64,000 bases of DNA from Streptosporangium album (GTDB lineage Bacteria > Actinomycetota > Actinomycetes > Streptosporangiales > Streptosporangiaceae). The notes beneath the pieces were generated by a model. The model was not told the origin of the DNA and ran no database searches. It saw only the letters and a list, made by a program, of their open reading frames with translations. Both the position numbers and the translations under genes were made by a program. Positions within the stretch are counted from its first letter, which is position 1. Each line of letters opens with the position of its first letter. This document shows, in pieces, positions 9,918 through 40,991 of the stretch. The stretch is taken from assembly GCF_014203795.1 (NCBI RefSeq), contig NZ_JACHJU010000001.1, positions 2,666,001 through 2,730,000 of the forward strand, given 5' to 3'.

Positions 9918-9980
9918 CTAGTGGTGATAACCCGGGAACGCGCCCCTCTCCAGCGGACACGCCCAGGTCGGGCGGACTCT

Positions 9981-11591
9981 TTAACGCGGACGGACCACCC
10001 TGGTCTCATCCCAGACCGGTTCGGGCGATTCGTATACTTTTCCATCCGCGCCGAAGACGAGATAGCGGTCGAAGTCGTCGGCGAACCAGCGGTCGTGGGT
10101 GACCGCGACCACGGTGCCGTCGAAGGCGTTGAGCCCCTCCTGCAGCGCTTCGGCGCTGGCCAGGTCGAGGTTGTCGGTCGGCTCGTCCAGCAGGAGCAGC
10201 GTGGTGCCGGACAGTTCGAGCAGCAGGATCTGCAGCCTCGCCTGCTGCCCACCCGACAGCGTCTCGAACCGCTGCTCGGCGATGGTCCCGGCCAGCTCGT
10301 AGCGGGACAGCACCTTCATCGCCTCGTTCTTCAGCCGGGCGTGCTCGGTCATGACGATCTCGCAGGGCGTCCGGCCGACGAGCTCGGGGCGGGCGTGGGT
10401 CTGCGCGAAGTGGCCGGGGACGACCCGGGAACCGAGCCTGGACACGCCGGTGTGCCGGACGTCCTCCCCGGCGACGAGACGCAGGAAGTGTGACTTGCCG
10501 GAGCCGTTGGAGCCCAGCACCGCGACCCGCTCGCCGTACCAGACCTCCAGGTCGAACGGCTTCATGAGGCCGGTGAGCTCCAGCCCCTCGCAGATCACCG
10601 CCCGCTTGGCGGTCCGGCCGCCCTTGAGCCTCATGTTGATGAACTGCTCCTTGGGCGCCGCCTCCGGCGGCCCGGCCTCCTCGAACCTGCGCAGCCTGGT
10701 CTGGGCCGAGTGGTAGGCGGCGGCCATGGTGTCCATGTACTTGGCCTTCTGCTTGAGCATGAGGACCAGACGTTTGATCTTGGCGTGCTCCTCGTCCCAG
10801 CGTTTCTTCAGCTCGTCGAGGCGCTCGTTGCGGTCCCTGCGGGCCTGGGCGTAGGTGGTGAACCCCCCGCCGTGGATCCAGACGTTGCCGGACTCGACGG
10901 TGACGATCCGGTCGGCCGCGTTGGCCAGGAGCTGCCGGTCGTGACTGACCAGCACCACCGTCTTGGGCGTCTCCCGCAGGACCTGCTCCAACCAGAGCTT
11001 GCCCGGCACGTCCAGATAGTTGTCCGGCTCGTCCAGCAGCAGCGTCTGGTCCGGCCCCCGCAGCAGCGCCTCCAGCACCAGCCGCTTCTGCTCACCGCCC
11101 GACAGCGTGGTGACCTCACGGTATTTGCAGTCGTCGTACGGCATGCCGAGCGCGGCCATCGTGCAGGTGTCCCAGAGCACCTCGATGTCGTAGCCGCCCG
11201 CGTCGGAGTAGTCGGTGATGGCCTGCGCGTAGCGCATCTGGGCTCTCTCGTCCTCGCGCTCCATCATCACGAGCTCGGCGGCGTCGAGTCGCTCGGCCGC
11301 CTGCCGTACGCGCTGCGGGGCGACGCTGACCAGCAGGTCGTGCACCGTCCGGCCGTCACGGATGCTCCCGATGAACTGGCGCATGACCCCCAGGCCGCCG
11401 GAGCTGGCGACGCTCCCGTCGACCGGCTGCAGATCCCCCGCGATCAGCCGCATCAACGTCGTCTTGCCCGCTCCGTTGGGCCCGACGAGCGCGGCCTTGA
11501 CCCCCTCGCCGATCCGGAAGGACACGTCGTCCAGCAACGGCCGCCCATCCGGCAGTACATATGTCAGATGCCCGACCTCAACGTGCGCCAC
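9981..11591 (-). CDS. ABC-F family ATPase (ribosome-associated)
   Basis: Soluble protein with two ABC domains and no membrane segments; ABC-F proteins act on the ribosome, as translation factors or antibiotic-resistance factors. With the GTG at 11591 it has 536 residues starting MAHVEVGHLTYVLPDG. The first domain has Walker A GPNGAGKTT, signature LSGGEQKRLVLEALL and Walker B LLLDEPDNYLD; the second has GSNGSGKS, LSGGQQARLQ and LLLDEPTDNLD; a charged Lys/Arg-rich linker (ABC-F signature region) joins them. The start is preceded by GGAGGGG. The frame is open to 11783, but that part is leader and transposase debris. Its promoter and first codons are the template for the repeats found to the right. 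Resistance function is not inferable from sequence alone. Confidence 0.93.
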   Translation of the reverse strand: MAHVEVGHLTYVLPDGRPLLDDVSFRIGEGVKAALVGPNGAGKTTLMRLIAGDLQPVDGSVASSGGLGVMRQFIGSIRDGRTVHDLLVSVAPQRVRQAAERLDAAELVMMEREDERAQMRYAQAITDYSDAGGYDIEVLWDTCTMAALGMPYDDCKYREVTTLSGGEQKRLVLEALLRGPDQTLLLDEPDNYLDVPGKLWLEQVLRETPKTVVLVSHDRQLLANAADRIVTVESGNVWIHGGGFTTYAQARRDRNERLDELKKRWDEEHAKIKRLVLMLKQKAKYMDTMAAAYHSAQTRLRRFEEAGPPEAAPKEQFINMRLKGGRTAKRAVICEGLELTGLMKPFDLEVWYGERVAVLGSNGSGKSHFLRLVAGEDVRHTGVSRLGSRVVPGHFAQTHARPELVGRTPCEIVMTEHARLKNEAMKVLSRYELAGTIAEQRFETLSGGQQARLQILLLELSGTTLLLLDEPTDNLDLASAEALQEGLNAFDGTVVAVTHDRWFADDFDRYLVFGADGKVYESPEPVWDETRVVRPR

Positions 11592-11670
11592 GACGATTCC
11601 CCTCCAAAGGTCCCCGCGCAGCGTACCCGCCGATTTCACCGACGGGCATCCCGATTTCCGCCGGGTACGG
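11569..11670 (-). repeat. ABC-F start repeat, copy 1 (native, in use)
   Basis: The copy attached to the intact ABC-F gene. Read on the minus strand it holds a TACGCT-type -10 element, the ribosome binding site GGAGGGG, the GTG start and the codons for MAHVEVG. Six further copies lie at 14226, 15459, 18034, 19411, 22239 and 23749 in the same orientation. Copy 2 is identical to it over about 73 bases from the coding end, while farther copies differ more. Left of 11569 this copy continues into ABC-F coding sequence, whereas all others switch to a shared GGGGTCATGG-type end. Confidence 0.9.
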
Positions 11671-11793
11671 CAGGTGCAGGGTGAGATGCCCGCGGCCGTG
11701 GCGGGCGACCCGTGCCGGGACGCAGATGAGATGGCGGCGCAGGTCAGCCAGGCGGCGCCTGCGTTGAAGTCCCCGGACGGCATCGGAGGGCAC
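11663..11793 (-). pseudogene. Transposase 3' remnant, IS1380-like
   Basis: The minus strand upstream of the ABC-F promoter encodes LADLRRHLICVPARVARHGR followed by GHLTLHLP, which resembles the C-terminal end of IS1380-family transposases (typically LRxxLIxVPARIAxxARRxxLHLP). Only about 40 codons remain, they run into the ABC-F promoter repeat, and no inverted repeats can be recognised. Identification is from memory of the family, with moderate confidence. It shows that an insertion sequence once sat at the boundary of the array. Confidence 0.5.
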
Positions 11794-11844
11794 CGCCTCG
11801 CGTTTCAGGGCATTCGGATCAGAATCGACTCGGTGGATTCAGGT

Positions 11845-13638
11845 TCAGGGAGTCTTCTGGACGAGTACCGGCGTGTCGCTGCCCTCTTCGGTGACCAGCA
11901 GGTACCTCTGGTGGTCCCGTTGCGCGTTCTCGGGCGTGAGAGCCTCTCTCAACGGGCCGATGGCCTGAGCGACCTGCGCCCCGGCCACGTTCGTCTTGAA
12001 TGTGGCGAGCGCTTCCTTCCGCTCGAATGGCTCGGTTCGGGAGGACACCAGCCAGAGCGTGTAGCCCTTCTGCGGATCCAGGCCCGACACCGCGATTTGC
12101 AACGTGTCCAGCGGGCCCATCGAATTGAGGGAAACCGTCGCGTGTCCCCGGCCTCCTTCCGGGGCTGCCAGGAAGAGGTGACTGGCCTTGCCAGCCCTAC
12201 CCAGCGGCACCAGATTGGACGTACCGGCGCCGGAGGGCACGGCCTGCGGGACGTAAACGAGTGCCTGCGGCTGCTGACCGATGGGAATCGTCGTGAGGAC
12301 CTTGTTCGTGAGCGTGTCGATCGCCGTGACCGCGTCCCGGTTCTCCAGGCCGACGTAGACCCGCGTCCCGTCGCCGGATCCCCAGACGCCGTGGGGCAGG
12401 TCGCCGACGGGGATGGTGGCGACCAGCTTCGGGCTTTCGCCTCGGCGATAGACCTTCACGGTGTTCTCCCCGCCCACCGTCACGTAGGCGAACTTGCCGT
12501 TGACGTTGTCCACGGTGGTGACGTGGTTGGTGATGGGGCCGGTGTCCAGTGTGGCAAGGATGCGGAAGGGCGGCTCGCCGCTCATCACCTGCGTCTTGCC
12601 GGAGTCCTTGAGCGTGAACCACACCTCCGTCCCGTCCCGGCTCACGGCCAGATTCGGCGAGAACGGGCTGGCCTGTGGGACGCGGGCGACGACCTTATAC
12701 GTCCGCGTGTCCACCACGTTCACTTCGGGAGTGAAGCTGGAGGGCACGTAGGCATACCGTCCGTCCGGGTGGAACAGCACCATGCCGGGCCCGTTGGCGG
12801 TCTCCACCCGGCGTGTCTCGCTCATCTTCACCGGATCGATCACGGAGACGTAGTTCTCACCACGGACTGTCGCCCAGACCTCCCTGCCGTCGGGCGTGAA
12901 GAACGCCTCGTGCGGCGAGCGGCCGATGTAGACGACGCCTTTGACGGTGTTGGTCGCCGTGTCGATCAGAGTGACCGAGTTGGACCCGATGGACACCACC
13001 GCCAGGGTCCGGTGGTCGGGTGAGAACCCCATTCCGTGCACGAGCAACTGGCCTTTGTACAACGGGCTCAGCGCGCCGGGCACGATGTCGCCGAGGCGAA
13101 TGACGCCCAGCAGCCTATTCGAGCTGGGATCGATCACGGAAACGGTGTTCGAGGTCTGGTCGGCGGTGTAGACCCGATCCTGGCTGGTGACGGGTATCGG
13201 TTCGGCCGCGCTCCGGGCGGGCGAGGCGGTCGGCTGCGGTGCGGTGGCTTGCGGAGTGCCGGGGGGCGATGCTGTCGATCGCGATACCGCCAGTCGGCGG
13301 CGCATGACATCGATTTCCTGCTGCTGGGTGACGATGATCTCTTGAGCCAGCCGTCGCAGAACCGGGTCGCTACCGTGTATCAGCTCTGCCCTGGCCATGT
13401 CGACGGCGCCCTGATGGTGCGGGATCATCATGGCGGAGAAGTCATGATCGGGATCGCCGGTCATCGCCGCGGCGGTCATGCCGTCGTTCATCCGTTTCAT
13501 GCTCGTGGCCATCTCCCGCGCGAACGCTGACTCCCCATCCACGTGAGACGTGTGCGGCTGCACTCCGCACGCGACCATGCCGAAAGAGCAGAACACCGCT
13601 GTGCCGAGAACGCACAGCCGCTGCAGAATGGTCGCCAT
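11845..13638 (-). CDS. Lipoprotein with DUF305 domain fused to YVTN beta-propeller
   Basis: 597 residues. The signal segment ends FGMVACG, giving a lipobox Cys, so the protein is probably membrane-anchored outside the cell. Residues about 35-115 are a DUF305 domain with the His-rich signature MMIPHHQGAVDMA and a Met/His/Asp-containing helix typical of proteins linked to metal (often copper) handling. After a Pro/Ser/Thr linker comes a seven-bladed-type propeller built from YVTN repeats (NTVSVIDPSSNRLLGVI, NSVTLIDTATNTVKGVV and further copies), then a C-terminal beta domain. It is the only clear intact gene between repeat copies 1 and 2. The fusion is less usual than DUF305 alone. A metal-related role is inferred from the domain only. 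Confidence 0.85.
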   Translation of the reverse strand: MATILQRLCVLGTAVFCSFGMVACGVQPHTSHVDGESAFAREMATSMKRMNDGMTAAAMTGDPDHDFSAMMIPHHQGAVDMARAELIHGSDPVLRRLAQEIIVTQQQEIDVMRRRLAVSRSTASPPGTPQATAPQPTASPARSAAEPIPVTSQDRVYTADQTSNTVSVIDPSSNRLLGVIRLGDIVPGALSPLYKGQLLVHGMGFSPDHRTLAVVSIGSNSVTLIDTATNTVKGVVYIGRSPHEAFFTPDGREVWATVRGENYVSVIDPVKMSETRRVETANGPGMVLFHPDGRYAYVPSSFTPEVNVVDTRTYKVVARVPQASPFSPNLAVSRDGTEVWFTLKDSGKTQVMSGEPPFRILATLDTGPITNHVTTVDNVNGKFAYVTVGGENTVKVYRRGESPKLVATIPVGDLPHGVWGSGDGTRVYVGLENRDAVTAIDTLTNKVLTTIPIGQQPQALVYVPQAVPSGAGTSNLVPLGRAGKASHLFLAAPEGGRGHATVSLNSMGPLDTLQIAVSGLDPQKGYTLWLVSSRTEPFERKEALATFKTNVAGAQVAQAIGPLREALTPENAQRDHQRYLLVTEEGSDTPVLVQKTP

Positions 13639-13675
13639 CTAAACTCCATTTCCATGCGGAGAGCGGTCCTCAGCG

Positions 13676-13890
13676 GTGCTGAAGTGCCCGCCATGCCGTC
13701 TCGGGCGTCAGCGGCATGTCGGTGTGATCGGCGTGGAGGGCGTCGCACGCGGTGTTCAGGACGGCGTGTGGGATGCCGATAAAACCGGTCTCGATCTCGG
13801 CGAGCGGCTTGTCCGGGGCCTCGGCGTCGTCGCCCGAGTTGTATGTGCGGCCGGTGTGCGTCCGATACGCGAGCGCATCATCGGGGATAA
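13676..13890 (-). pseudogene. Possible gene remnant (molybdenum-hydroxylase-like C-terminus)
   Basis: A minus-strand frame without a plausible start encodes PLAEIETGFIGIPHAVLNT followed by ...MPLTPETAWRALQHR and a stop. The pattern of a Gly/Pro-rich stretch, an A/N helix and then LPLTPE near the C-terminus recalls the ends of xanthine-dehydrogenase-type large subunits. Third-position GC is high, as in real genes here. The identification is weak; it may simply be old coding debris between the DUF305 gene and repeat copy 2. Confidence 0.25.
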
Positions 13891-14225
13891 CGGACCCTTC
13901 CGGTGGCCGCGGGCGGCCACAGGGCGATCCATATCAGCGATCACTTACTGAATCATGGTGCTCGTGATCGCCACCATAAGAGCCAGAGATGAGCACGGCG
14001 AGCAGAACGGCTAAGAGGGTGATTAGCCCTCGAATCGACCGTGGATAGATACGGTATATCTACTGTTAAGCCCCATACCACGAAGCTATGTGAAGCCATC
14101 TATCGAGACACTATGGCCGCGTGAAAGCCTTCCTCAAGAACCTACTGAATGCCTACCATCCTCGACCGCCTTGCACCCGCAGCCGAAGACAAGGACCCGG
14201 ATCCAGTCAGCCTGGGCAGGTCATG
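13891..14225. other. AT-richer spacer with palindrome and His-rich peptide frame
   Basis: About 335 bases, visibly less GC-rich than its surroundings. It holds the 17-bp inverted repeat TAGATACGGTATATCTA at 14046-14062. On the minus strand a short frame without a standard start, ITLLAVLLAVLISGSYGG followed by DHEHHDSVSDR and a stop, looks like the end of a small membrane peptide with a His-rich tail. Both lie upstream of the DUF305 gene, and the palindrome could be an operator. I see no complete gene. Confidence 0.35.
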
Positions 14226-14349
14226 GGGGTCATGGCTTGCATGTGGGCTGCCCGACCTCAACGTGCGCCACGACGATTCCCCTCCAAAGGTCCCCGCGCA
14301 GCGTACCCGCCGATTTCACCGACGAGCATCCCGATTTCCGCTGGTACGG
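14226..14349 (-). repeat. ABC-F start repeat, copy 2
   Basis: Near-perfect copy of the ABC-F promoter, GGAGGGG site, GTG start and first seven codons. After MAHVEVG the frame continues QPTCKP and ends at TGA, so it can only make a 13-residue peptide. The left end is the shared signature GGGGTCATGGCTTGCATG. It is identical to copy 1 over the start-codon core, the closest match of all copies. Confidence 0.9.
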
Positions 14350-14361
14350 CGGGCACGGAGA

Positions 14362-14802
14362 TCAGGCGGCTCCCGCGTCTCGGAGCAGTTCGGTCTTGAC
14401 CACGCCCTCAACCGCGTGGCAGAGCTTGGCATCCGTTGTGAGCAGAGGGATCCCCTGATCGAGCGCCAGCTGGGCGAAGACGGCGTCGTACATGCGCAGC
14501 GTCAGACGTACCGCCAGCCCGGCGGCCCGTTCCAGATGGTCTGCGCCGATCGGGTGAACCGTCACGCCGAGATCGTCGATAACACGTACGGCCGCCGCGA
14601 ACTCCTCCGCCGTCAAGCGGCCCGGCAAAAGTCCTTTCTTACGCAGCACCCCGGCCACCTCGATCCGGGCGAAGTCCGCCGTCTCCAGCTCGACGAGGCC
14701 GTCCAGGAACGCTTCCTGCACCTCACGGGCATGCTCGAATCCAGGCTGGTCGACGAACCATCGCAGAAAGACACCGGTGTCGACGACATAGGCATCAGCC
14801 AC
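14362..14802 (-). CDS. vapC: PIN-domain ribonuclease toxin, VapC family
   Basis: Predicted RNA-cleaving toxin of a type II toxin-antitoxin pair. The 146-residue protein starts VADAYVVDTGVFLRWFVDQP and shows the acidic PIN residues: Asp8 in VVDTG, Glu in LVELETAD, Asp in RMYDAVFA and Asp in LLTTDAKL. Its GTG start overlaps the antitoxin stop by eight bases, the usual translational coupling. It lies between repeat copies 2 and 3, only 13 bases from copy 2. A decayed relative of this pair lies at 19766-20093. Confidence 0.87.
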   Translation of the reverse strand: MADAYVVDTGVFLRWFVDQPGFEHAREVQEAFLDGLVELETADFARIEVAGVLRKKGLLPGRLTAEEFAAAVRVIDDLGVTVHPIGADHLERAAGLAVRLTLRMYDAVFAQLALDQGIPLLTTDAKLCHAVEGVVKTELLRDAGAA

Positions 14803-15007
14803 GGGACTCTTCCCGGCGCCGGTCCAGTTCCTCGTCCACTCCCGTCACCCCGCGCATCCTGCCACGGATGCGTTCCAGAGCGACCAATGCCTTCTCTCTC
14901 CGGCGGGACGACGACATGTTCTCCCGGACGAGCGCGAGCACCGGAGGCACCCGATCCTCGGGCAACTGGTCCACCAGCAGATGGAGTTCCTCACGCATTG
15001 CGCTCAT
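14795..15007 (-). CDS. vapB: VapB-type antitoxin
   Basis: Small charged protein of 70 residues (MSAMREELHLLVDQLPEDRV ...) directly upstream of and overlapping vapC by eight bases, so it should be the cognate antitoxin and autoregulator. The central stretch RENMSSSRRREKALVALE is helical and basic, then the C-terminus is acidic/Arg-rich as in antitoxins that wrap the toxin. TACACT lies seven bases before ATG 15007 and no ribosome binding site is visible, which suggests a leaderless transcript. A near-identical but separately evolved copy is at 19890-20093. Confidence 0.75.
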   Translation of the reverse strand: MSAMREELHLLVDQLPEDRVPPVLALVRENMSSSRRREKALVALERIRGRMRGVTGVDEELDRRREESRG

Positions 15008-15088
15008 AACCGCAGTGTACGGCCGTGTGCTGGCCGGACACAGGGTTGCCGTCGCTTCCAGCCGGTGAGGGGGCACCCACATGACGAC

Positions 15089-15372
15089 TTATCCGCCGCC
15101 CTGGCCGGACACGGTACGGGATCGCAGGCGTGCCTTCGCTCCCTGGGTGATCACGCCGGCCGGGTCGGCGTCATCCTGCGTTCCCGGCCGTTCCTCCGCC
15201 CCGGCCCGTGCCGATCCGCCGGTGCAGCGGTCGTACAGGACCGCGGACGCTTCCGGCCCCTCCGTAAGGATGTGCACCGGTCCGTCGTCATACACGTACG
15301 GCAGGCCGAACCGGCCACGCTCGCGGAGATCAGCAGAATCGCAAGCAGCCGGAGAACCCGCGGACGCCTCAT
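15089..15372 (-). pseudogene. Small lipoprotein gene with apparent frameshift
   Basis: On the minus strand ATG 15372 starts a convincing lipoprotein signal, MRRPRVLRLLAILLISASVA followed by GSAC. In that frame the sequence then degrades to Arg/Ser/Thr-rich residues. In the next frame, starting at the same place, a coding-like stretch GLPYVYDDGPVHILTEGPEA continues with high third-position GC to a stop at 15089. The simplest reading is one small secreted protein broken by a single frameshift just after the lipobox; the alternative is two chance frames. Function unknown. It lies between vapB and repeat copy 3. Confidence 0.4.
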
Positions 15373-15458
15373 GATCCGCAAAACAGATGATCGACTGTCC
15401 TGGTTCCCCGGCTCGTTCCCGATTCCCAGAAGCCCCGGATGCAGCAATCACGGTTCAC

Positions 15459-15581
15459 GGAGGTCATAGCGTGCATGTGGGCTGCCCGACCTCAACGTGC
15501 GCCACCGCGATTCCCCTCCAAAGGTCCCCGCGCTGCGTACCCGCCGATTTCGACCAGAGGCATCCTGATTTCTCAGTACGG
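15459..15581 (-). repeat. ABC-F start repeat, copy 3
   Basis: Contains the GGAGGGG site, GTG and MAHVEVG codons, then QPTCTL and TGA. It differs from copy 1 at a few positions around the start codon leader (CACCGCG for CACGACG) and further upstream. The left end reads GGAGGTCATAGCGTGCATG, a variant of the shared signature. Confidence 0.88.
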
Positions 15582-15676
15582 CGGGCTCAGCACCCGGGCA
15601 GACCGGCGACCGCCCAGTCGATTACCAAGAGGAGGCCCGCCAGTGGACGATCTTGAGGCGCGACGAAGGCCAGCCG

Positions 15677-16306
15677 TCACCTCGGGTCCGGGGAAGACGA
15701 CAGGAGGACGCGCATGCCTTCCAAGATCACCGACAGGCCGTGTTCGAAGGTCTCCTCACCCTGCGGGGGACCGCTTTCCGCGAAGGTCTCGAGAAGGCTC
15801 GGGTGACCGGCGAACCACCGATTGGCCTCGTTGAGCTCCTCCTGTGGTTCTCGCACGGGCTTTGCCTGCTCCTCCAGCACGAACCCGCTGACATAGTTGC
15901 TGAGGGTGAACAGGCCCCGCAGCGCCTCACGCGGCAGGAAGCCGGCTCGCCCCAGCGACTCCAGTGCGACCTGGAGGATCGGGAGGGCACTTGGCCCGGG
16001 GCGGGCGCCCACGAAGAGCCGGGCAGCGTCACGGTGGGAGTTCAGCATGCGCCGCTGGTCACGCATGCGTTCGGCGAGCCAGTTTTGCCAGGGCTCACCC
16101 TCGGCCAGGGGCCGCAGCGGAATCTCACGCGACAGCGCATCCGCCATCTCATCCAGCAACTCCTGCTTGTTGGCGAAGTGCCAGTAGAGCGCGGGGGCCT
16201 GCACGCCCAGCTCGGCGGCCAGGCGGCGCAGGGTCAGCCTGTCCAGGCCGACTTCGTCCAGCAGCGCCAGCGCGGTGGTGACGACCTTGGCGCGGTCAAG
16301 TTTCAC
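15677..16306 (-). CDS. TetR family transcriptional regulator
   Basis: A 209-residue repressor starting at GTG 16306 (VKLDRAKVVTTALALLDEVG). The N-terminal helix-turn-helix LRRLAAELGVQAPALYWHFA is typical of TetR/AcrR proteins, and the C-terminal half looks like the tetracycline-repressor ligand-binding type. It is divergent from an FAD monooxygenase gene; the 69-base gap holds two near-identical TTAACG/CGTTAA inverted repeats, so it most likely represses both genes and is released by the monooxygenase substrate. Leftward extension of the frame beyond GTG 16306 is antisense to the monooxygenase and not real. Confidence 0.88.
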   Translation of the reverse strand: MKLDRAKVVTTALALLDEVGLDRLTLRRLAAELGVQAPALYWHFANKQELLDEMADALSREIPLRPLAEGEPWQNWLAERMRDQRRMLNSHRDAARLFVGARPGPSALPILQVALESLGRAGFLPREALRGLFTLSNYVSGFVLEEQAKPVREPQEELNEANRWFAGHPSLLETFAESGPPQGEETFEHGLSVILEGMRVLLSSSPDPR

Positions 16307-16337
16307 GGTTGACAGCTTAACAACGTTCAATACATCC

Positions 16338-16366
16338 TTAACGACGTTAAATATAACGGCGTTAAG
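16338..16366. promoter_or_regulatory. Twin TTAACG palindromes, TetR operator
   Basis: TTAACGACGTTAA at 16338-16350 and the closely matching ATAACGGCGTTAA at 16353-16365 lie 15 bp apart, centre to centre, between the divergent TetR and monooxygenase genes. A further half-site TTAACAACGTT lies at 16317-16327. The spacing of about one and a half helical turns fits two repressor dimers. Confidence 0.65.
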
Positions 16367-16375
16367 GGGATGTTG

Positions 16376-18124: not shown

Positions 18125-18175
18125 TTCCACCCGCGAACATCTCGTTTTCCACCAGCCCACGCGGCCCGTATGGGG
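18034..18175 (-). repeat. ABC-F start repeat, copy 4 (most diverged)
   Basis: Keeps a GGGAGGG ribosome binding site, GTG start and the codons MAHVEVG, then diverges (SADMGAMTS) with the TGA of the other copies out of frame by one base. The left signature reads AGAGGTCATGGCTCCCATG. The upstream promoter half is only loosely related to the others. Its reverse strand encodes the tail of the monooxygenase. Confidence 0.7.
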
Positions 18176-18188
18176 GTACCGTACAGAC

Positions 18189-18608
18189 ATGAACAGGCTT
18201 AGTTCTTTCAGAACGGTGAGCGACGCCGCCGCTGTAGCGGCCCGGATGCTCGCCGACGGCGAACCGCTGAGCCGCGTGTGGCGTTTCTCCATCGTGCAGA
18301 TGCTGGACGACTACACAAGTGTTCTTCGACATGACGGTGTGACAGCCGCTGGCCAGATGTGGCAGAACGCGCCGTCACCGGTGGGGGACGTCCGGGTGGA
18401 CGCCGCTCTGGCCGCGCTGGCAGAACACCTCGCGCGTAAGGACGGATGGCCGGTGCCGCCTTGGACTCGTGATCCACGGAGGGAGGCACTGCCGTGGTGG
18501 TTCGTCACCGAGCTCCGCGGCCTGCATCCCCGCGCGCTGGTGGAGGCCCCCTCCTCATTTCGCAAGCGCGGCGTGTTCATCACCCGAGGCGCCCTGGAGC
18601 GGGTATGA
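18189..18608 (+). CDS. Hypothetical protein, first gene of nucleotidyltransferase operon
   Basis: A 139-residue, soluble, mostly helical protein starting MNRLSSFRTVSDAAAVAARM. I do not recognise the family. The stop overlaps the next start (ATGA), so it is translationally coupled to the nucleotidyltransferase, and the Trp-rich C-terminal half (PPWTRDPRREALPWWFVTEL) suggests a folded domain. GTACAGAC directly before ATG 18189 and no ribosome binding site suggest a leaderless transcript. Position ahead of a toxin-like nucleotidyltransferase makes an antitoxin or substrate-adaptor role possible, but this is inference. Confidence 0.7.
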   Translation: MNRLSSFRTVSDAAAVAARMLADGEPLSRVWRFSIVQMLDDYTSVLRHDGVTAAGQMWQNAPSPVGDVRVDAALAALAEHLARKDGWPVPPWTRDPRREALPWWFVTELRGLHPRALVEAPSSFRKRGVFITRGALERV

Positions 18609-19171
18609 GCGTCGGACTTGGCCGGGACGAGATCCTCGAGCTTCTGAACGAGCTGAGTACGGAGCTGGCCGCACGCGGCGCCAGAGCAGACCTGTTTCTC
18701 GTAGGAGGCGCGGCGATCGCTGTGGCCTACGACAGTGCGAGATCCACGAGAGACCTCGACGGGGTATTCCTTCCGACCGAGGTGGTCAGACAGGCGACAC
18801 TCGCCGTGGCCGAACGTCGCGGTCTGGCCAAGGACTGGCTCAACGACGCGGTGAAAGGTTTCCTGCCCGGCCCCGACCCCGATGCTCAGCGGTACTACTC
18901 CAGCGACTCTCTGACCGTTGATGTCGCATCGGCACGCTACCTGCTCGCGATGAAACTTTTCTCGTCACGTGTGGAGAACGACGCCGACGACATCATGTTT
19001 CTCTACCGGCAACTTGGTTTCACCACCGTGGAGGAAGGGCTCGACCTGGTCGAGAGCGTCTATCACGGCCGTGCGGTCGAGCCAAAGGTTCAGTTCCTGC
19101 TCAGCGAGATCGTGACGGCACTCCACGACCAGGACGGACCGCCCGCACCACCGGATGAGCCTCAGCCGTGA
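18605..19171 (+). CDS. Nucleotidyltransferase-fold protein (DUF6036/AbiEii-like)
   Basis: A 188-residue protein with the minimal nucleotidyltransferase pattern: FLVGGAAIAVAYDSARSTRD followed by LDGVF, i.e. GG, an A-x-x-x-Y helix and an R-x-T/S-x-D-hydrophobic-D/N motif typical of DUF6036/AbiEii/MenT-related proteins, which often act as toxins that nucleotidylate tRNA or proteins. The second catalytic acidic residue is probably in SLTVDVAS. The start overlaps the upstream gene by four bases (ATGA) and the end overlaps the next gene by four (GTGA), making a tight three-gene operon between repeat copies 4 and 5. A toxin or defence role is inferred from fold and context. Confidence 0.75.
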   Translation: MSVGLGRDEILELLNELSTELAARGARADLFLVGGAAIAVAYDSARSTRDLDGVFLPTEVVRQATLAVAERRGLAKDWLNDAVKGFLPGPDPDAQRYYSSDSLTVDVASARYLLAMKLFSSRVENDADDIMFLYRQLGFTTVEEGLDLVESVYHGRAVEPKVQFLLSEIVTALHDQDGPPAPPDEPQP

Positions 19172-19389
19172 CCCCGTCCGCTGTAGAGGCTCTGGCTGCG
19201 GCTCGGCGGCACGGCGGCGTCTCCGAGCAGGCACGCCTGTCCATGCTGGAGCATGCGAGACAGAGGCGCGCAGCGATCCTGACAGCTCATCTGGAAGGCC
19301 TGTCCATAAGACGCATCGCCGAAGAACTCGGATGCAGCCCCGCCGTCGTCCAATCCGCGATCCGCGCCGCGCGCGAAGACATTTCCTGA
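19168..19389 (+). CDS. Small helix-turn-helix protein
   Basis: A 73-residue protein starting at GTG 19168. Its C-terminal half LSIRRIAEELGCSPAVVQSA is a helix-turn-helix of the sigma-region-4/resolvase type, preceded by a basic Arg/Ala-rich helix. It overlaps the nucleotidyltransferase stop by four bases and is probably the operon's DNA-binding autoregulator or antitoxin. Its stop lies 21 bases before the GGGGTCATGG end of repeat copy 5. Confidence 0.7.
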   Translation: MTPSAVEALAAARRHGGVSEQARLSMLEHARQRRAAILTAHLEGLSIRRIAEELGCSPAVVQSAIRAAREDIS

Positions 19390-19410
19390 CGCACTTCCCG
19401 GCACCGGACA

Positions 19411-19535
19411 GGGGTCATGGCTTGCAGGTGGGCTGTCCGACCTCAACGTGCCCCACGACAATTCCCCTCCAAAGGTCCCCGCGCAGCGTACCCGTCGGTT
19501 TCGCCTACGGGCATCCTGATTTCGCTCCGGTACGG
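19411..19535 (-). repeat. ABC-F start repeat, copy 5
   Basis: GGAGGGG, GTG start, then MGHVEVGQPTCKP and TGA. It starts GGGGTCATGGCTTGCAGG on the left and keeps the TACGCT -10 element and about 50 further upstream bases. It differs from copy 1 at about four positions in the 60-base core. Confidence 0.88.
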
Positions 19536-19765
19536 CCCGGCAACGTGAGCCGAACTGCCCCGCAGCTGATCCGCCCTCGACTCCAAGGAGTTCACACAGG
19601 GCCTCCATGCGAACGGTTAATGCCTAACCGTTCGTATGGAGGAGGAGCGAGAACACTTCGTTTGCCGCCGTCACGGCACCGCGCGTTCACACCAGACCGG
19701 AGCCCGCGGCCGATGAGGCGCCAAAGTTTGCGATCGCTCCAGCCCATGCTCCGCGACCAGCCTCA
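19536..19765. pseudogene. Scar of a lost Fic cassette
   Basis: The DNA after copy 5 matches, with differences, the DNA after copy 6 that leads into the intact Fic gene: the same order of ...AGTTCAC-CAGGG..., then the 15-bp-arm palindrome (here 19605-19639), then a GGAGGAGGAGCGAGAAC leader. Where the Fic start should be the match ends, and instead a second copy of the upstream stretch TTCACACC[A/G]GACCGGAG... (19680 onward) follows. The Fic coding region itself is gone. I see no gene in this stretch. Confidence 0.6.
19605..19639. promoter_or_regulatory. Palindrome shared with the Fic leader
   Basis: Arms CCATGCGAACGGTTA and TAACCGTTCGTATGG around ATGCC, with one mismatch. It matches the perfect palindrome at 22430-22464 upstream of the Fic gene. 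Here no gene follows, so it is a relic operator or hairpin. Confidence 0.7.
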
Positions 19766-19897
19766 GTGATCCGCTGTCTCCAACTCGACGAGATCGTCCA
19801 GGAATGCCTCCTGAACCTCGCGGGCATGCTCGAACCCGGGCTGATCGACGAATCAGCGAAGGAAGACGCCGGTGTCAACGATGTAGGCGTCAGCCAC
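19766..19897 (-). pseudogene. vapC: Decayed vapC toxin gene
   Basis: From GTG 19897 the reading is VADAYIVDTGVFLR, stop, FVDQPGFEHAREVQEAFLDD and LVELETAD, then the match ends. It aligns residue by residue with the intact VapC at 14362-14802, where the stop position is Trp15. Thus it carries a nonsense mutation (TGG to TGA) plus loss of the last two thirds of the gene. The eight-base overlap with its antitoxin is preserved. It cannot make an active PIN nuclease. Confidence 0.85.
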
Positions 19898-20093
19898 GTG
19901 ACTCGTCCCGGAGCCGGTCCAACTCCTCGTCCACTCCGGTCACCCCTCGCATCCGGTCACGGATGCTCTCCAGAGCCGCCGCGGCCCTCTCCCGCCGACG
20001 GGATGACGACACGTTCTCCCTGACGAGCGCGAGCACCGGCAACGCCCGGTCCTCCGGCGACTCGTCCACCAGCGGATGGAGTTCCTCACGCAT
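19890..20093 (-). CDS. Orphan VapB-type antitoxin
   Basis: A 67-residue protein starting MREELHPLVDESPEDRALPV, clearly homologous to the antitoxin at 14795-15007 along its whole length (VLALVRENVSSSRRRER, then IRDRMRGVTGVDEELDRLRD). A GGGGAGGG ribosome binding site precedes ATG 20093. Its toxin partner is a broken fragment, so the antitoxin is now solitary; it could still neutralise the related VapC 5 kb away or be a passive relic. Confidence 0.7.
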   Translation of the reverse strand: MREELHPLVDESPEDRALPVLALVRENVSSSRRRERAAAALESIRDRMRGVTGVDEELDRLRDESRG

Positions 20094-20125
20094 CGCCGGC
20101 CCTCCCCTTGTACTACCGAGCCCCC

Positions 20126-20677
20126 TCAGGAGGAGCGCCCCGCGTAGTAGCGCCGCGACTTGTCGCGGCTGCCGCAGGTGGTCATGCTGCACCACCGGCG
20201 GCGACGATTCTTGCTGACGTCCAGGAACAACCAACAGCACGACGGACACTCACCGAGCCGATCCAGTGGCCCGTGGGTGAGCAGCTCGACCGCCGAAGCC
20301 GCGACCTCCCAGAGCAGGATTCGTACCGTACGCGGCGCCCCCCACGAGAACCGGAAGTTCCCGTCGGCTTCCTCCAGCCGGCCATGAGCAATGCCGTCAC
20401 CGTGCAACGCGACGACGACATCCAGATCCGGCTGTGGCGCCCGGTCCCCCTGCGTAAGCGGCTGGAACACCCGGAACACCGCCTCACGCAGCTCGCGGGC
20501 ATCCGGCAGGGCCGCTGCGAGCCCATCCGGCTCCTCGATCGGATGCCCCGTCGCCGCGGCCCAGGTCACAGCCTCCTCCGGGGTGCCCAGCCAGTCTCGC
20601 CGAGCCACCGGACGGGCGTTGACCGTGTTGGCGAAGTCCAGGCACAGCGCGTTTCCAACCAGCTCGACGGCAGTCAT
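20126..20677 (-). CDS. CGNR zinc-finger regulator with ABATE domain
   Basis: A 183-residue predicted transcription factor. The N-terminal part MTAVELVGNALCLDFANTVN is the ABATE stress-sensing domain; the C-terminal part has the CGNR-type zinc finger, with CPSCCWLFLDVSKNRRRRW followed by CSMTTCGSRDKSRRYY. It is divergent from an MFS exporter gene, with about 95 bases between them. The GATCAAA-containing direct repeats ACCGATCAAA at about 20694 and 20740 are candidate binding sites. ATG 20677 is preferred over 20701. It probably controls the exporter. Confidence 0.87.
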   Translation of the reverse strand: MTAVELVGNALCLDFANTVNARPVARRDWLGTPEEAVTWAAATGHPIEEPDGLAAALPDARELREAVFRVFQPLTQGDRAPQPDLDVVVALHGDGIAHGRLEEADGNFRFSWGAPRTVRILLWEVAASAVELLTHGPLDRLGECPSCCWLFLDVSKNRRRRWCSMTTCGSRDKSRRYYAGRSS

Positions 20678-20693
20678 GACACCGAGTATCTCA

Positions 20694-20748
20694 CCGATCA
20701 AACTCTGTTGACAGGTCAGACAGCACCGGCCACGCTATGACCGATCAA
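20694..20748. promoter_or_regulatory. Promoter and direct repeats between CGNR and MFS genes
   Basis: A TTGACA -35 element lies at about 20708 with a CGCTAT-like -10 about 18 bases on. Two copies of ACCGATCAAA flank it (about 20694 and 20740). The position between divergent regulator and exporter genes fits a regulator-binding site. Confidence 0.45.
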
Positions 20749-20772
20749 ATACATTTGAAAGGTAAGAAACGA

Positions 20773-22017
20773 ATGCGCCTCCTCCCCCTGTCGCTGGGCC
20801 GGCCGTTCAACGCGCTGTGGTTCGGCACTGGTGCCGCGAACCTCGGCGACGGCATGGCGCTGTTCGTCCTGCCACTACTCGCCATCGCCGCCGACGCCTC
20901 ACCCGGCGGAGTGGCGGCCGTGACGGCGGCGCTTACCCTGGCATGGCCGATCTTCGGCCTGCACGCCGGCTGGATCGTCGATCGGGTCGACCGCCGGATG
21001 CTGCTGAGCGGCGTCAACCTGGTCCGCGCGCTGATGCTGTCCGGCCTCACCGTCAGCCACTTCACCGGCACCCTGTCGCTGCCGCTACTCCTCACCGTGG
21101 CGGTGCTGCTCGGCGCGGCCGAGACGTTGGTCGACACCGCGCTGACCTCGACCATCCCCATGGTCGTCGAACCCGCCGGTCGCAACAGAGCCAACGCACG
21201 CATCGAGGCGACCATCAACGTCACCAACCAACTCGCCGGCCCACCGCTCGCGGGTCTACTGGCAGGCCTCGCCCTCGCCCTGGCCACCGGCGCGAGTGCG
21301 GCCCTCTACGCCCTGGCCGTCGCCGGGATCGCCATGATGGCCCTGCGCCGGGCGCCCGCCGAGGCTCGAACCGCAGGGGGCAGCGACGTGGTCGCCGGCT
21401 TCCGGTACCTGTGGCGACAGCCGGTGGTGCGAACGCTGACCCTCTTCACCGCCATGATGAACATCCCCTGGGCGGTCGCGACGGCCCTGCTCGTCGTGTA
21501 CGCCGTCAGCCCCGGCCCGCTCGATCTCACCACAACCCAGTACGGCCTGGTGCTGACGGCGATGGCCGTGGGCGGACTGCTCGCGGCGGCGGTGGTGGAG
21601 CCGTTGCAGCGCCGGTTCGGGGTGACCAGGCTGCTGATCGTCGACGCCGCCGGGACCGTTCTGCTGGTGGCGCCTGTGGCGCTGGACGGGCCGGTCTGGA
21701 CCGTGGTCGCAGGGGCAGTGATCGCTGGGGCCGGGTCGAGCATCTGGCGCATCCTGGTGGCCACGATCCGGCAGAACCTGTCGCCGCCGGAGTTGCTGGG
21801 GCGTATCTACGCCGCGTCTCGGATGCTCAGTTGGGGCGTGATTCCCGCCAGCGCGGCGCTGGCTGGAGTCGCGGCGGAGCTATGGGGCGTACGGGCGGTG
21901 TTCGTCCTGGCCACGGGGCTCGCCGTCGTCGTGCTGGGCGTCTTCGTGCCATACGCGCTCCGTACGGATCTGTCCGCGGCCATCGAGCCGAAAGTGGACC
22001 ATCAGCCCGTCGCGTGA
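20773..22017 (+). CDS. MFS transporter, MFS_3/EntS-like exporter
   Basis: A 414-residue membrane protein starting MRLLPLSLGRPFNALWFGTG, with about 12 hydrophobic segments and the MFS motif A region GWIVDRVDRRMLL between helices 2 and 3. It resembles MFS_3-type drug or siderophore exporters that extrude small hydrophobic compounds. ATG 20773 has a GAAAGG site eight bases upstream; an ATG at 20737 is possible but lacks one. It is divergent from the CGNR regulator. Substrate unknown. Confidence 0.88.
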   Translation: MRLLPLSLGRPFNALWFGTGAANLGDGMALFVLPLLAIAADASPGGVAAVTAALTLAWPIFGLHAGWIVDRVDRRMLLSGVNLVRALMLSGLTVSHFTGTLSLPLLLTVAVLLGAAETLVDTALTSTIPMVVEPAGRNRANARIEATINVTNQLAGPPLAGLLAGLALALATGASAALYALAVAGIAMMALRRAPAEARTAGGSDVVAGFRYLWRQPVVRTLTLFTAMMNIPWAVATALLVVYAVSPGPLDLTTTQYGLVLTAMAVGGLLAAAVVEPLQRRFGVTRLLIVDAAGTVLLVAPVALDGPVWTVVAGAVIAGAGSSIWRILVATIRQNLSPPELLGRIYAASRMLSWGVIPASAALAGVAAELWGVRAVFVLATGLAVVVLGVFVPYALRTDLSAAIEPKVDHQPVA

Positions 22018-22085
22018 GCGCGGCCGACGGCACGTGGCGCAGGCTCCCTCCAACTGAAGGTGTGACGGCTGATCCCTTTCCAGGC

Positions 22086-22220
22086 ATGCGAGTCCGCGCC
22101 AACACCCCGGTCACCGCCGAGCACACCAACCGTCAGCGCCAGCGCCAGGAGTCCAAGACCAACGATGCGATCCGGGAAAGCGCCCATGACCCGGAGACGT
22201 TCAACTCCGAAGACTGGTGA
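22086..22220 (+). CDS. Small hydrophilic hypothetical protein
   Basis: A 44-codon frame starting MRVRANTPVTAEHTNRQRQR and ending FNSEDW. Third codon positions are almost all G or C, as in real genes here, which the reverse-strand frame does not show. There is no strong ribosome binding site. Its stop lies 18 bases before the GGGGTCATGG end of repeat copy 6. Function unknown. Confidence 0.45.
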   Translation: MRVRANTPVTAEHTNRQRQRQESKTNDAIRESAHDPETFNSEDW

Positions 22221-22238
22221 TCAAACTCAGAGTTCATG

Positions 22239-22362
22239 GGGGTCATGGCTTGCATGTGGGCTGCCCGACCTCAACGTGCGCCACCGCGATTCCCCTCCAA
22301 AGGTCCTCGCGCAGCGTACCCGCCGGCCGGCCTCTCGGACATTTCGATTTCCGCTGTCCCGG
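22239..22362 (-). repeat. ABC-F start repeat, copy 6
   Basis: GGAGGGG, GTG start, MAHVEVGQPTCKP and TGA as in copy 2; the leader has CACCGCG like copy 3. Left signature GGGGTCATGGCTTGCATG. The upstream 30 bases diverge from the other copies. Confidence 0.88.
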
Positions 22363-22429
22363 CGCCGCATGTTCACACCGGACCGGAGCCCGCGGCCGAT
22401 CTCGAATCCAGAGAGTTCACCCAGGGCGT

Positions 22430-22464
22430 CCATACGAACGGTTAACATCTAACCGTTCGTATGG
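22430..22464. promoter_or_regulatory. Perfect 15-bp-arm palindrome upstream of Fic gene
   Basis: CCATACGAACGGTTA, spacer ACATC, TAACCGTTCGTATGG. It ends 19 bases before the Fic start codon and would overlap the promoter or 5' leader, so it may be an operator for autoregulation by the Fic protein's own helix-turn-helix domain, or an RNA hairpin. A relic copy is at 19605-19639. Confidence 0.75.
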
Positions 22465-22483
22465 ATGGAGGGGGAGAACGCTT

Positions 22484-23749
22484 ATGGCTGAGTACATCGC
22501 CATGTCCTGGCCGGGCACTCCGGGCGGTGCCACGCGAGCGGAACGCCAACCGTGCCACTACAAGGCGTACGTTCCCGATCCTCTGCTCGGCCGCCCCTTA
22601 AACCTGACGGCACAACGCGCGGCGGATGTGAGCGACGTCGAGCGCCGGCTCGTGAAGTTGAACGCATCCCCGCGAGCCCTGATCAGTCTTGAAGCGCTGG
22701 CCAGGCTTCTCCTAAGAGCCGAAGCTGTGGCGAGTTCGTTCATCGAAGGCCTGCAGATCAACGTTCGGCGTCTCGCCAAAGCCGATGTGGCATCACGTAC
22801 CGGCATAGATGCACACGATGACACGGCGCACGCGGTCCTCGGGAACGTCCGGGCGATGGAATCGGCTCTCGAACTCGCGGACGCACCGGCCGTATATGTC
22901 ACTGACATCCTGGAAGTCCACCGAAGGCTTCTCAACGGGACTCGGGACGCACGCTTCGGCGGCCTGATCAGAACCGAGCAGAACTGGGTCGGCGGAACCG
23001 GCATGTCACCATGCGGCGCCGACTTCGTCCCCCCGCCGCCCGACAGAGTTCACCCGCTCCTCGAAGACCTGTGCGCGTACATGTCAGGAGACGACCACCC
23101 CGCTCTGGTCCAGGCGGCCATCGCACACGCACAGTTCGAGACGATCCATCCATTCATTGACGGCAACGGCCGTACGGGACGGGCACTCATCCACCTGATC
23201 CTCCGGCGTCGAGGATTGGCACCCCGCTTCGCCCCGCCGATCAGTCTCATCCTGGCGTCACACGCCGATGCCTACATCTCCGCACTCACCGCATACCGTT
23301 ACGAGGGAGCCTCCGACTCTCCGCAAGCCCAGGAGGGCATGGGCGCCTGCCTCGATCGATTCGTCGCGGACACCGCCCGCGCCAGTATCGACACGGATCG
23401 TTTCGGCGCGACACTCGACACCCTCGAAAGGGAATGGCGAGGAAAGCTGGGGAGAGTGCGCGCGGGGTCCTCCGTCGATCTTCTACTGCGAGTGCTTCCC
23501 TCTGCTCCCGTGCTCACGGCCACCACCGCCGCCGACCTGATCGGGCGATCCGCCCAGCGAGCCAACGACGCGGTCAACCAGCTCGCGGCAGCAGGCGTGC
23601 TCAAACAGACCACCATCGGCAGACGTAATCGCGCATTCGAGGTCCCCGACCTCATCAACGCCCTCACTGGATTCGAAAGAGCACTCGCCAGTCCGCTGGG
23701 TGACACCCGCCAGGCAGCCCCCGCACGGCCAGTCCCTTACCGACCATAG
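22484..23749 (+). CDS. Fic family protein (AMPylator or related) with self-inhibitory motif
   Basis: A 421-residue Fic protein that would transfer a nucleotide monophosphate to target proteins. The catalytic motif IHPFIDGNGRTGRALIH contains the His and the anion-binding GNGR. An N-terminal class II inhibitory helix is present as AVASSFIEGLQ, matching S/T-x-x-x-E-G. The C-terminal part (about 345-400) is a winged-helix DNA-binding domain (AADLIGRSAQRANDAVNQLA). ATG 22484 has GGAGGGGGAG upstream. Its TAG stop overlaps the first base of repeat copy 7. Such Fic proteins may be autoregulators, consistent with the palindrome just upstream. Confidence 0.9.
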   Translation: MAEYIAMSWPGTPGGATRAERQPCHYKAYVPDPLLGRPLNLTAQRAADVSDVERRLVKLNASPRALISLEALARLLLRAEAVASSFIEGLQINVRRLAKADVASRTGIDAHDDTAHAVLGNVRAMESALELADAPAVYVTDILEVHRRLLNGTRDARFGGLIRTEQNWVGGTGMSPCGADFVPPPPDRVHPLLEDLCAYMSGDDHPALVQAAIAHAQFETIHPFIDGNGRTGRALIHLILRRRGLAPRFAPPISLILASHADAYISALTAYRYEGASDSPQAQEGMGACLDRFVADTARASIDTDRFGATLDTLEREWRGKLGRVRAGSSVDLLLRVLPSAPVLTATTAADLIGRSAQRANDAVNQLAAAGVLKQTTIGRRNRAFEVPDLINALTGFERALASPLGDTRQAAPARPVPYRP

Positions 23750-23871
23750 GGGTCATCGCCTGTACGTGAGCTGCCCGACCTCAACGTGCGCCACGACGAT
23801 TCCCCTCCAAAGGGCCTCGCGCAGGCCACCCGCCGGTTTCGGAGTCGGCATCCGATTGTCCTCCGGTACGG
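23749..23871 (-). repeat. ABC-F start repeat, copy 7 (outermost)
   Basis: GGAGGGG, GTG, then MAHVEVGQLTYRR and TGA. The residues QLTY match the native ABC-F HLTY better than any other copy, so it is clearly derived from an ABC-F 5' end. The left end reads GGGGTCATCGCCTGTACG and abuts the Fic stop codon. No copy is found further right in the window. Confidence 0.85.
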
Positions 23872-36063: not shown

Positions 36064-36269
36064 AGCCCCGGCTCGTGATGATCGGAGGGCACCGGCGCTC
36101 CTCGCTCCTGTGCGTCCGGGCGCCGGTAACGGAGGAGGACGGCCCCGTCACCGAAGATCCAGGTCTCGGTCTTCTGGCCGGACCCGCCCTCCCGGACGGC
36201 TCAGACTCCGTGGAGGACAGCGCGGACCGCGTCGGCCTTTCTGTCGGTGCCGGCTGGCACGCTCCGCTC

Positions 36270-36926: not shown

Positions 36927-37164
36927 CCGGGCGGGAGCCCAGGACCTGCATGCGCCGGGAACTCTAGGACGATCACGTACGCAGAAGGTTCGACCCGCCA
37001 CCCGGAGTTCGAGCCGGCCCGCTATGCCGCGGCGCGGCTGACGCCGGACGAGCGGGCGGCGACGGCCGGTTTCGGCGGGCAGCGACGGAGATCGCCATCG
37101 CGACCCGGTCCGCGGGTGCCGGCACCGGCACCCGTGAACCATCGGAAAGGTGTGAAAACACGCC
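36927..37164. other. Gap with coding debris
   Basis: About 240 bases. One plus-strand frame (about 36970-37090) reads TYAEGSTRHPEFEPARYAAA with high third-position GC but has no start and no stop that makes sense, so it may be leftover coding sequence. No intact gene. Confidence 0.3.
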
Positions 37165-37854: not shown

Positions 37855-37862
37855 CGTGTCTC

Positions 37863-40975: not shown

Positions 40976-40991
40976 TCCACGGTCTTTGCCG

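Follow-up and report, generated by a model that had tools for sequence, protein, structure and literature searches.

Staphylococcal cassette chromosome (SCC) arrays at orfX/rlmH are rows of tandem units at a conserved gene, moved by serine recombinases and including units without a recombinase of their own; they lie at the 3' end of that gene, usually keep ccr genes within the array and consist of units much larger than the cassettes described below. For cis-mobilizable elements (CIMEs), the excerpt of PMC5704250 describes tandem accretion, in which a decayed integrative and conjugative element (ICE) or integrative and mobilizable element (IME) and a newcomer share one att site (Pavlovic 2004, cited there). 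The excerpt of PMC3146451 reports ssrA islands in Dehalococcoides with a CcrB-like serine recombinase, 15 islands being without an integration module, and that of PMC3218068 reports a serine integrase in 19 of 144 actinomycete integrative and conjugative elements (AICEs), one group of them lying inside protein genes. Here we describe a row of small cassettes at the start of an ABC-F gene of Streptosporangium album, found in a 64,000-nucleotide stretch (the window; contig NZ_JACHJU010000001.1, positions 2,666,001 to 2,730,000). The array is probably made of six small cassettes accreted at a serine-integrase attB in the first eight codons of the ABC-F gene, likely one by one next to the gene. 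Searches of the open-licence literature turned up no account of this site in Streptosporangiaceae or of any array located at the start of an ABC-F gene.

The ABC-F gene (9981-11591 of the window, minus strand, 536 amino acids), the sole full copy there, was recognised by its open reading frame (ORF) and two stretches matching Pfam ABC_tran. Its start region occurs in seven direct copies between 11569 and 23871, all on the minus strand, with GTG starts at 11591, 14271, 15505, 18080, 19456, 22284 and 23794 and spacings of 2680, 1234, 2575, 1376, 2828 and 1510 bp. Searching the 9.0-Mb genome (14 contigs) with one copy gave exactly seven matches, with E values of 4e-56 to 1e-12 and all at the ABC-F locus, so chance is excluded. 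The repeat is bipartite. A B half, comprising the upstream stretch, ribosome site, GTG and eight ABC-F codons (these codons being the left half of the insertion site), is followed in copies 2-7 by a 23-bp arm that is foreign to the ABC-F gene and absent from copy 1. The arm reads GCCCACATGCAAGCCATGACCCC in copies 2 and 6, and beyond it the identity between copies drops on average to the random level. Copy 4 is degenerate, reading GGGAGGGA with one extra core base, and codon 2 is altered in copy 5.

An earlier note, made from the letters of this DNA alone, had described seven copies, in one orientation, of the promoter, ribosome site, GTG start and first seven codons; the number and the orientation hold, but the repeat does not end at codon 7 or 8 and runs on into the arm. 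As it had also said, the only copy continuing into the ABC-F gene is copy 1 (11569-11690, minus strand), which carries the upstream stretch, ribosome site, GTG and eight codons and reads B-B', an intact attB. Identity to copy 1 over the start region (-72..+21) was 0.98, 0.88, 0.72, 0.88, 0.81 and 0.84 for copies 2-7. Copy 2 is therefore nearly identical to copy 1, as claimed, but the divergence does not rise steadily with distance; the idea that the newest cassette adjoins the gene is favoured by the geometry and by the near-identity of copies 1 and 2, and weakened by this irregular decay. The start region of copy 6 was closer to the same-genus genomes G002 and G003 (loci L117 and L118; G and L numbers are our handles for genomes and loci) than to copy 1 (0.87 against 0.81), which is expected if cassettes carry their own start regions.

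The nature of the arm became apparent from Microbispora siamensis (L100, the same as L186; G224). In this genome a large serine integrase gene (L186 3250-4728; Pfam Resolvase, Recombinase and Zn-ribbon domains) lies directly upstream of ABC-F and is followed by RepSA, FtsK and GntR genes (Pfam), so that the element is, by its predicted gene content, an AICE. The ABC-F gene begins here with ATGCTAAATGTCAGC followed directly by CATCTGACG, the usual start being replaced exactly where the S. album copies switch from B to the arm. At the other end the host start is followed by GCCGACTGTCAAGCTATAACCCAC, on a separate contig of the same assembly (G224:C83), and the two ends on their two contigs, B-P' and P-B', would belong to one element. 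Serine-integrase attP sites are imperfect inverted repeats, as in the excerpt of the phiJoe paper (PMC5311408), and the same symmetry is present between the two attP half-sites of M. siamensis, 21 of 30 positions agreeing at register 0 and at most 9 at the six neighbouring registers. When 4,981 CA-anchored 24-mers were compared with the M. siamensis P' half-site from the core onwards, the S. album arm scored highest, with 17 of 24 positions agreeing (the next had 14).

A two-site matrix was built from the M. siamensis attP half-sites alone and used to score the window, where it placed the arms of copies 2, 6, 3, 5 and 7 at ranks 1, 1, 4, 5 and 5 and that of copy 4 at rank 30 among 127,956 positions. 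Shuffling the columns of the matrix 300 times gave the best of the six S. album arms a top-ten rank in two cases. The remaining 13 cassette hosts have 15 arms, and 11 of these were placed among the five best positions of their locus (1, 1, 1, 1, 1, 1, 2, 2, 3, 4 and 5 out of about 36,000-43,000). Because 16 of the 21 cassette arms in all hosts thus fall in the top five with this matrix, the second block of the repeat is assigned, by sequence comparison, as a large-serine-integrase attP-type (P') half-site. An extended matrix, to which three half-sites of 55-61% identical integrases were added with the register picked through a shared G-rich hexamer and which is for this reason less independent, gave similar arm ranks; the three added half-sites alone did worse on the window (arm ranks 12, 12, 5, 24, 78 and 273). 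Five of the six S. album cassettes open with the 23-base arm matching the attachment arms of the M. siamensis element.

All copies are on the minus strand. The P' half-site of copy 2 lies at 14226-14248 (rank 1 of 127,956 with the M. siamensis matrix) and its B half, with the ABC-F upstream stretch and start, at 14249-14345 (98% identical to copy 1 over -72..+21). Copy 3 occupies 15460-15580, its P' (15460-15482, rank 3-4) being followed by the B half, and the degenerate copy 4 occupies 18034-18150 (P' 18034-18056, rank 24-30; 72% to copy 1). Copies 5 (19411-19530; P' 19411-19433, rank 5) and 6 (22239-22360; P' 22239-22261, rank 1) follow, and copy 7, the outermost, is at 23749-23871 (P' 23749-23771, rank 4-5).

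Conservation between hosts was compared in 13 genomes with one outer copy per host, leaving out G073 and taking the second copy of G004. The mean pairwise identity was 0.80 in the 23 coding bases, 0.75 in the arm, 0.62 in the ribosome-site stretch, 0.57 in the stretch above it and 0.50 in the 30 bases after the arm, the last being the level of random 30-mers (0.50). Within S. album, copies 2-7 showed an arm identity of 0.81 against 0.69 for the upstream stretch. The arm is thus kept better than the upstream stretch, which argues against its being a passive fossil.

The distribution among relatives was studied in 80 named genomes through their ABC-F orthologues (the best 80 of 572 confirmed) and flanks of up to 10 kb. 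The HVE start motif was present in 62 of the 66 orthologues whose start was located (14 of 80 were not located), and a clear outer copy with arm was found in seven of the 80 loci (L038, L039, L047, L058, L066, L072 and L090), with a weak eighth in L103. A tight arm pattern matched the S. album genome only, so a sequence model was made from 19 outer copies and run on 297 family genomes, that of S. album included. Among the matches listed, 18 genomes were matched through most of the arm; the weak matches in G083, G254 and G019 were dropped, as a second model matched them without the arm, which left 15. One of these, G224, is the M. siamensis AICE case. Cassettes lie directly upstream of ABC-F in at least 14 of the 297 genomes and number at least 21, of 0.45-4.0 kb: six in S. 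album (G000), three in G004 and one each in G002, G003, G008, G029, G048, G073 (about 1.2 kb, a size derived from coordinates), G078, G167, G189, G208, G289 and G322. The remaining genomes gave no cassette among the matches listed.

In S. pseudovulgare (G001) the site looks empty, and about 1.0 kb separates the ABC-F start from the flank gene, which has a PMT_2 domain (Pfam; 26997-28460 in the window, plus strand). In S. album this distance is 15.3 kb; the array is therefore an insertion between the flank gene and ABC-F. The predictions of the earlier note that the repeat is bound to the ABC-F gene, that the number of cassettes at the site differs between relatives and that the start region is the insertion point of cassettes with accessory genes agree with the loci of the relatives: the number varies from 0 to 6 between species, and across the family genomes searched one exception to the binding was seen. 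This is a lone B-P' copy with arm in the single-contig genome G002 (L119, 9090-9188), 646 kb from ABC-F, whose arm ranks 4 in its locus and which is flanked by restriction-modification-like genes and a kinase-like gene, as read from the sequence. It may be either an off-target insertion or a relocation.

Some cassette types recur across genera, namely those with a PIN toxin, a nucleotidyltransferase-like gene, an exporter of the major facilitator superfamily (MFS) or a sigma factor. PIN-type cassettes were found in S. album, L058, L117, L118 and L158 (by Pfam PIN in S. album and L158, by DNA identity in the others). Cassettes of L038, L066, L090 and L116 have in common a helix-turn-helix (HTH)/nucleotidyltransferase-like gene accompanied by a partner ORF, and L103 has the partner alone; the Pfam match of the gene is weak (Polbeta at 21.5 bits in L038, below the cut-off) and the partner has none. 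In L036, L043, L046 and L091 this HTH/nucleotidyltransferase-like gene is the immediate upstream neighbour of ABC-F (at about 8.7-9.9 kb in the locus) with no outer copy found there, and these may be older cassettes that lost the outer site. A sigma-factor cassette is present in L039 and L161, and an AAA/DUF4143 gene in L072.

The sigma cassette of S. amethystogenes and that of M. glauca are 93.4% identical over 1,647 bp, and the ABC-F genes of the two 85.4%; in this pair a transfer between genera is clear. Among the matches listed, some cassette segment exceeds the ABC-F identity in five of 18 host pairs. In the other four pairs a transfer is only hinted at by the identities: L066-L090 (86.3% over 437 bp against 81.3% for ABC-F, another segment 77.2%), L072-L116 (84.7% against 82.9%), L038-L066 (84.5% over 233 bp against 83.7%, another 80.3%) and L118-S. 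album (92.4% over 327 bp and 93.6% over 234 bp against 91.6%, another 85.2%). Cassette B of S. album, described below, could possibly have been inherited vertically from an ancestor shared with G003, its identity being 85% against 89-90% for flanking DNA.

Replacement of the start region was approached by comparing 1,500 bp of ABC-F coding sequence with the upstream stretch (-72..+3) in close pairs. S. album and G003 are 96.5% identical in the coding part and 73% upstream, with flanking DNA at 89-90%, and S. canum and S. minutum are 98.8% and 79% identical. The upstream identity was 88-95% in other close pairs (L083-L082, L053-L050, L065-L063 and L121-L120), and many pairs lie between, at 50-80%, also without a known cassette (40 closest pairs of 104). 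Since so many pairs stand at 50-80%, this comparison, a weak test when taken alone, supports but does not prove that the start region would be replaced while the coding part stays.

Normal insertion of an attP element by its integrase gives B-P' on the outside and P-B' at the gene, and the M. siamensis AICE occupies the same site with just these two ends. In the S. album array the internal junctions read B-P', the host start region being followed by the P'-type half-site, and the junction at the gene reads B-B', intact. Such an arrangement is the product expected from a B-P' circle recombining with chromosomal B-B', and the same circle would be released between two sites. From this geometry, which can be read directly, we infer the circle, the direction of insertion and the enzyme. 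The travelling form of a cassette would be a circle with a single B-P' site at its joint, and its recombination with chromosomal B-B' would leave B-P' outside and B-B' at the gene. Each capture would renew the ABC-F start and the insertion site for the next cassette, and the newest cassette, adjoining the gene, would supply the start region in use. The step of which we are least certain is that the integrase of a visiting AICE might recognise the P' arm and start the exchange, with RecA-type recombination over the duplicated start contributing. We also advance, as a doubtful extension, that Streptosporangiaceae possess a recombinase-free integron-like capture site, in which the hybrid B-P', borrowed from an AICE serine integrase, would itself be the cassette site and would recombine with B-B' outside the attP x attB rule, repeatedly and without limit.

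Several points weigh against integrase-initiated accretion. A reaction between B-P' and B-B' is no standard reaction of serine integrases. None of the cassette hosts shows P-B', the inner junctions being B-B' in 13 of 13 hosts aligned and, by translation, in the fourteenth (G073). Five of the 21 arms fail the two-site matrix (copy 4 at rank 30, L072 at 62, L160 at 15 and two of the three in L116 at 905 and 175), the weak case L103 fails it outright, and the first junction of L116 retains gene sequence past the core. The cassette identity exceeds that of ABC-F in only five of the 18 host pairs mentioned, and clearly in just one. No integrase of the M. siamensis subfamily (E <=1e-90) was found in S. 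album or in 15 other genus members searched; it is present in four of 345 genomes of the order, and M. glauca, which has a cassette and such an integrase, carries them on different contigs. Within one host, the outer start region frequently resembles the inner one, with 57 identical bp in L158 and about 110 in L066, which is compatible with homologous exchange. According to the excerpt of PMC5311408, recombination of phiJoe attP with attL or attR was undetectable in vitro, but in S. coelicolor integration of a phiJoe attP plasmid into attL and attR was seen at low efficiency, so hybrid sites can serve in vivo. The failing arms and this in-vivo result pull in opposite directions and leave the odds of the accretion reading unchanged.

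The most serious competing explanation is homologous recombination alone, of circles or incoming DNA with the chromosome through the duplicated ABC-F start, with the P' arm as a passive fossil of one old AICE insertion. It would account for the many units whose outer and inner copies have 57-150 bp of start region in common, above what an integrase needs and often host-specific and mosaic, and for the fact that no cognate integrase was found in the S. album genome; yet the arm, which lies outside the homology, is better kept between hosts than the upstream stretch (75% against 57%) and is common to unrelated cassettes, and some outer copies (L072, L161 and the third site of L116) keep just about 14-40 bp of start region, so we regard it as possible but rather unlikely. 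Classical CIME formation, in which each cassette is the remnant of a separate AICE (attP x attB) whose genes were lost and whose P-B' end was repaired to B-B' from an intact allele, agrees with the AICE at the same site in M. siamensis and with the decay of elements to CIMEs and their later accretion in the excerpt of PMC5704250. We consider it improbable, as no rep, tra or integrase fragment was found in the 21 cassettes by tblastn with the M. siamensis element proteins and 60 integrase ORFs, and the repair of the inner end would be needed separately for each of the six S. album cassettes. A tandem duplication, dispersed repeat or assembly artefact is hardly credible despite the stray copy 646 kb from ABC-F in G002, because all seven S. 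album copies are at one locus, cassette contents differ and cassettes also exist in one- or two-contig genomes (G002, G003 and G004). An integron, with cassettes inserted by IntI at attI/attC, would give a similar outcome of small gene packages, one with a toxin-like gene, at one insertion point, but the whole genome has no TIGR02249 match above the curated cut-off (0 of 35) and the junctions are serine-integrase-type half-sites, which leaves this explanation with practically no weight. We favour capture initiated by an integrase, together with some homologous exchange.

No integrase or resolvase was found among the Pfam-annotated genes or the integrase-ORF matches in the S. album array, nor did tblastn with 60 integrase query ORFs give a match inside any of the 21 cassettes; insertion-sequence transposases are present in two of these, the middle one of G004 (L116) and that of M. 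glauca (L047). The view of the earlier note that no recombinase is in sight thus holds for the array, but not for the window, where a tyrosine-integrase-like stretch lies at 59813-60412. This stretch, apparently truncated, is 91.5% identical to an integrase ORF of G002 (L219). Among the candidates rejected, the nearest Phage_integrase match lies about 39-75 kb from ABC-F in G000, G002, G003 and G004 and the nearest Resolvase match at least 55 kb away in the same four genomes, both being too far and too frequent (52 and 27 in G000, respectively). A tyrosine integrase about 3-4 kb from ABC-F in L042 is part of another AICE beside a tRNA-Arg gene. The site search gave no match in phages and, for the exact pattern, none in viral contigs; five weak matches in plasmids were discounted.

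The S. album intervals of 1.2-2.8 kb carry one to three genes each, as had been claimed and as spacings, ORFs and Pfam confirm. Cassette A (11691-14225) contains a DUF305 and YncE-like beta-propeller protein gene (11845-13638, minus strand; Pfam). Cassette B (14346-15459) contains a PIN-domain toxin-like gene (14362-14802, minus strand; Pfam PIN), a small upstream ORF (14795-15082, minus strand) and a gene relic (15089-15451); the small ORF is antitoxin-like by position only, its part 14798-15007 having no Pfam match, and homologues of the cassette are those in L058, L117, L118 and L158. Cassette C (15581-18033) encodes a TetR regulator (15677-16312, minus strand) and a FAD monooxygenase (16370-18124, plus strand; both Pfam) whose reading frame terminates within copy 4. 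Cassette D (18151-19410) comprises an ORF without Pfam match (18189-18608), a DUF6036 nucleotidyltransferase (18605-19171) and a sigma-70-region-4-like HTH protein (19168-19389), all on the plus strand and the latter two by Pfam. Cassette E (19531-22238) has a CGNR regulator (20126-20701, minus strand) and an MFS exporter (20737-22017, plus strand), both by Pfam, together with a cassette-B-like fragment (19770-20096) that is 92% identical to L118; a similar exporter (Pfam) with a regulator (by eye) stands upstream of ABC-F in L044. Cassette F (22361-23748) consists of a Fic protein gene (22484-23749, plus strand; Pfam Fic and Fic_N), the stop codon of which shares one base with the P' half-site of copy 7.

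A palindromic operator-like sequence, CGAACGGTTA...TAACCGTTCG, was seen near copies 5 and 6 (19571-19658 and 22396-22483 of the window); near copy 5 it has no gene of its own in view, pointing to possibly fused or decayed cassettes. Outside the array, ORFs resembling group II intron reverse transcriptases, as judged from the letters, lie at 40992-44419.

Further observations concern the relatives of the M. siamensis element. Integrases 55-61% identical to that of M. siamensis adjoin a different ABC ATPase gene in L255 and L256 (G179 and G298), apparently inserted at the Walker A region, and another such relative is found in L254 (M. glauca), where the locus ends at the arm. In Planotetraspora (L068, L069 and L080; about 9975-10000) the ABC-F genes have no usual MGHVEVG start, and L069 reads GTGCAAGTGAGC followed by CATCTG, resembling the P-B' end of M. 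siamensis. The start in L069 may be a fixed fossil of an old insertion (P-B'); tblastn with the M. siamensis element proteins found no AICE genes beside the Planotetraspora ABC-F. A pterin-binding (dihydropteroate synthase-like) gene is found at 12685-13593 of L157, within foreign-looking DNA close to the M. siamensis element's outer end.

The reading given here places a row of small cassettes, otherwise unexplained, within a named recombination chemistry, and it makes a directly testable prediction, that a hybrid site, half from the host and half from an element, can be captured repeatedly. If true, it shows how AICEs can leave in actinobacteria a capture hot spot where toxin, exporter and regulator genes accumulate, and how the host gene retains its start through all captures. 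The reading would also account for a conserved gene that exchanges its start region but not its coding part.

By its working principle, as far as sequence comparison can tell, the array stands near CIMEs, ssrA islands and SCC. The earlier note knew of no described system like it; that nothing described resembles the array is not supported, as the P' half-site makes CIMEs, SCC arrays and the Dehalococcoides ssrA islands, and not integrons, its closest kinds. Since the junctions consist of serine-integrase attB and P' halves, the locus is probably an accretion array and not an integron. The inverted repeats listed for it fall within cassettes, genes or the flank rather than at the junctions, a result obtained without an attC model. 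With SCC arrays it shares tandem units at a conserved gene; its target is ABC-F, and no serine recombinase match was found in the array.

Like CIMEs in the excerpt of PMC5704250, the array consists of integrase-less direct tandem units at one conserved gene with newcomers at the gene end; no integrase or transfer genes were found in the units, and their number varies between relatives. Unlike them, its units are of 0.45-4 kb without detected ICE remnants, the target is a 5' end to which each unit brings a start region, and of the attL and attR flanks of a CIME the attL-type B-P' is present, the inner ends being B-B' and not attR. The ssrA islands in the excerpt of PMC3146451 likewise form a row separated by direct repeats of the host gene end; theirs is a 20-bp repeat at the tmRNA 3' end, whereas the repeat here includes the start codon with up to about 100 bp upstream and a P' half-site. 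The M. siamensis element, in which Rep, FtsK-type Tra and integrase occur together, belongs by gene content to the serine-integrase AICEs, and none of its genes were detected in the cassettes. The phiJoe/SCO2603 elements of Streptomyces, as far as the excerpt of PMC5311408 goes, resemble the array in a serine-integrase attB with varying content and in hybrid sites used inefficiently in vivo, but they carry an integrase and a recombination directionality factor and insert near the 3' end of another gene. The Acinetobacter dif modules, in the partial account available, are also small modules moved by an externally supplied recombinase, yet they use XerCD sites on plasmids. Unusual features of the ABC-F array are the very small size of its cassettes, its target at a 5' end and its inner junction, which is an intact B-B' where P-B' would be expected.

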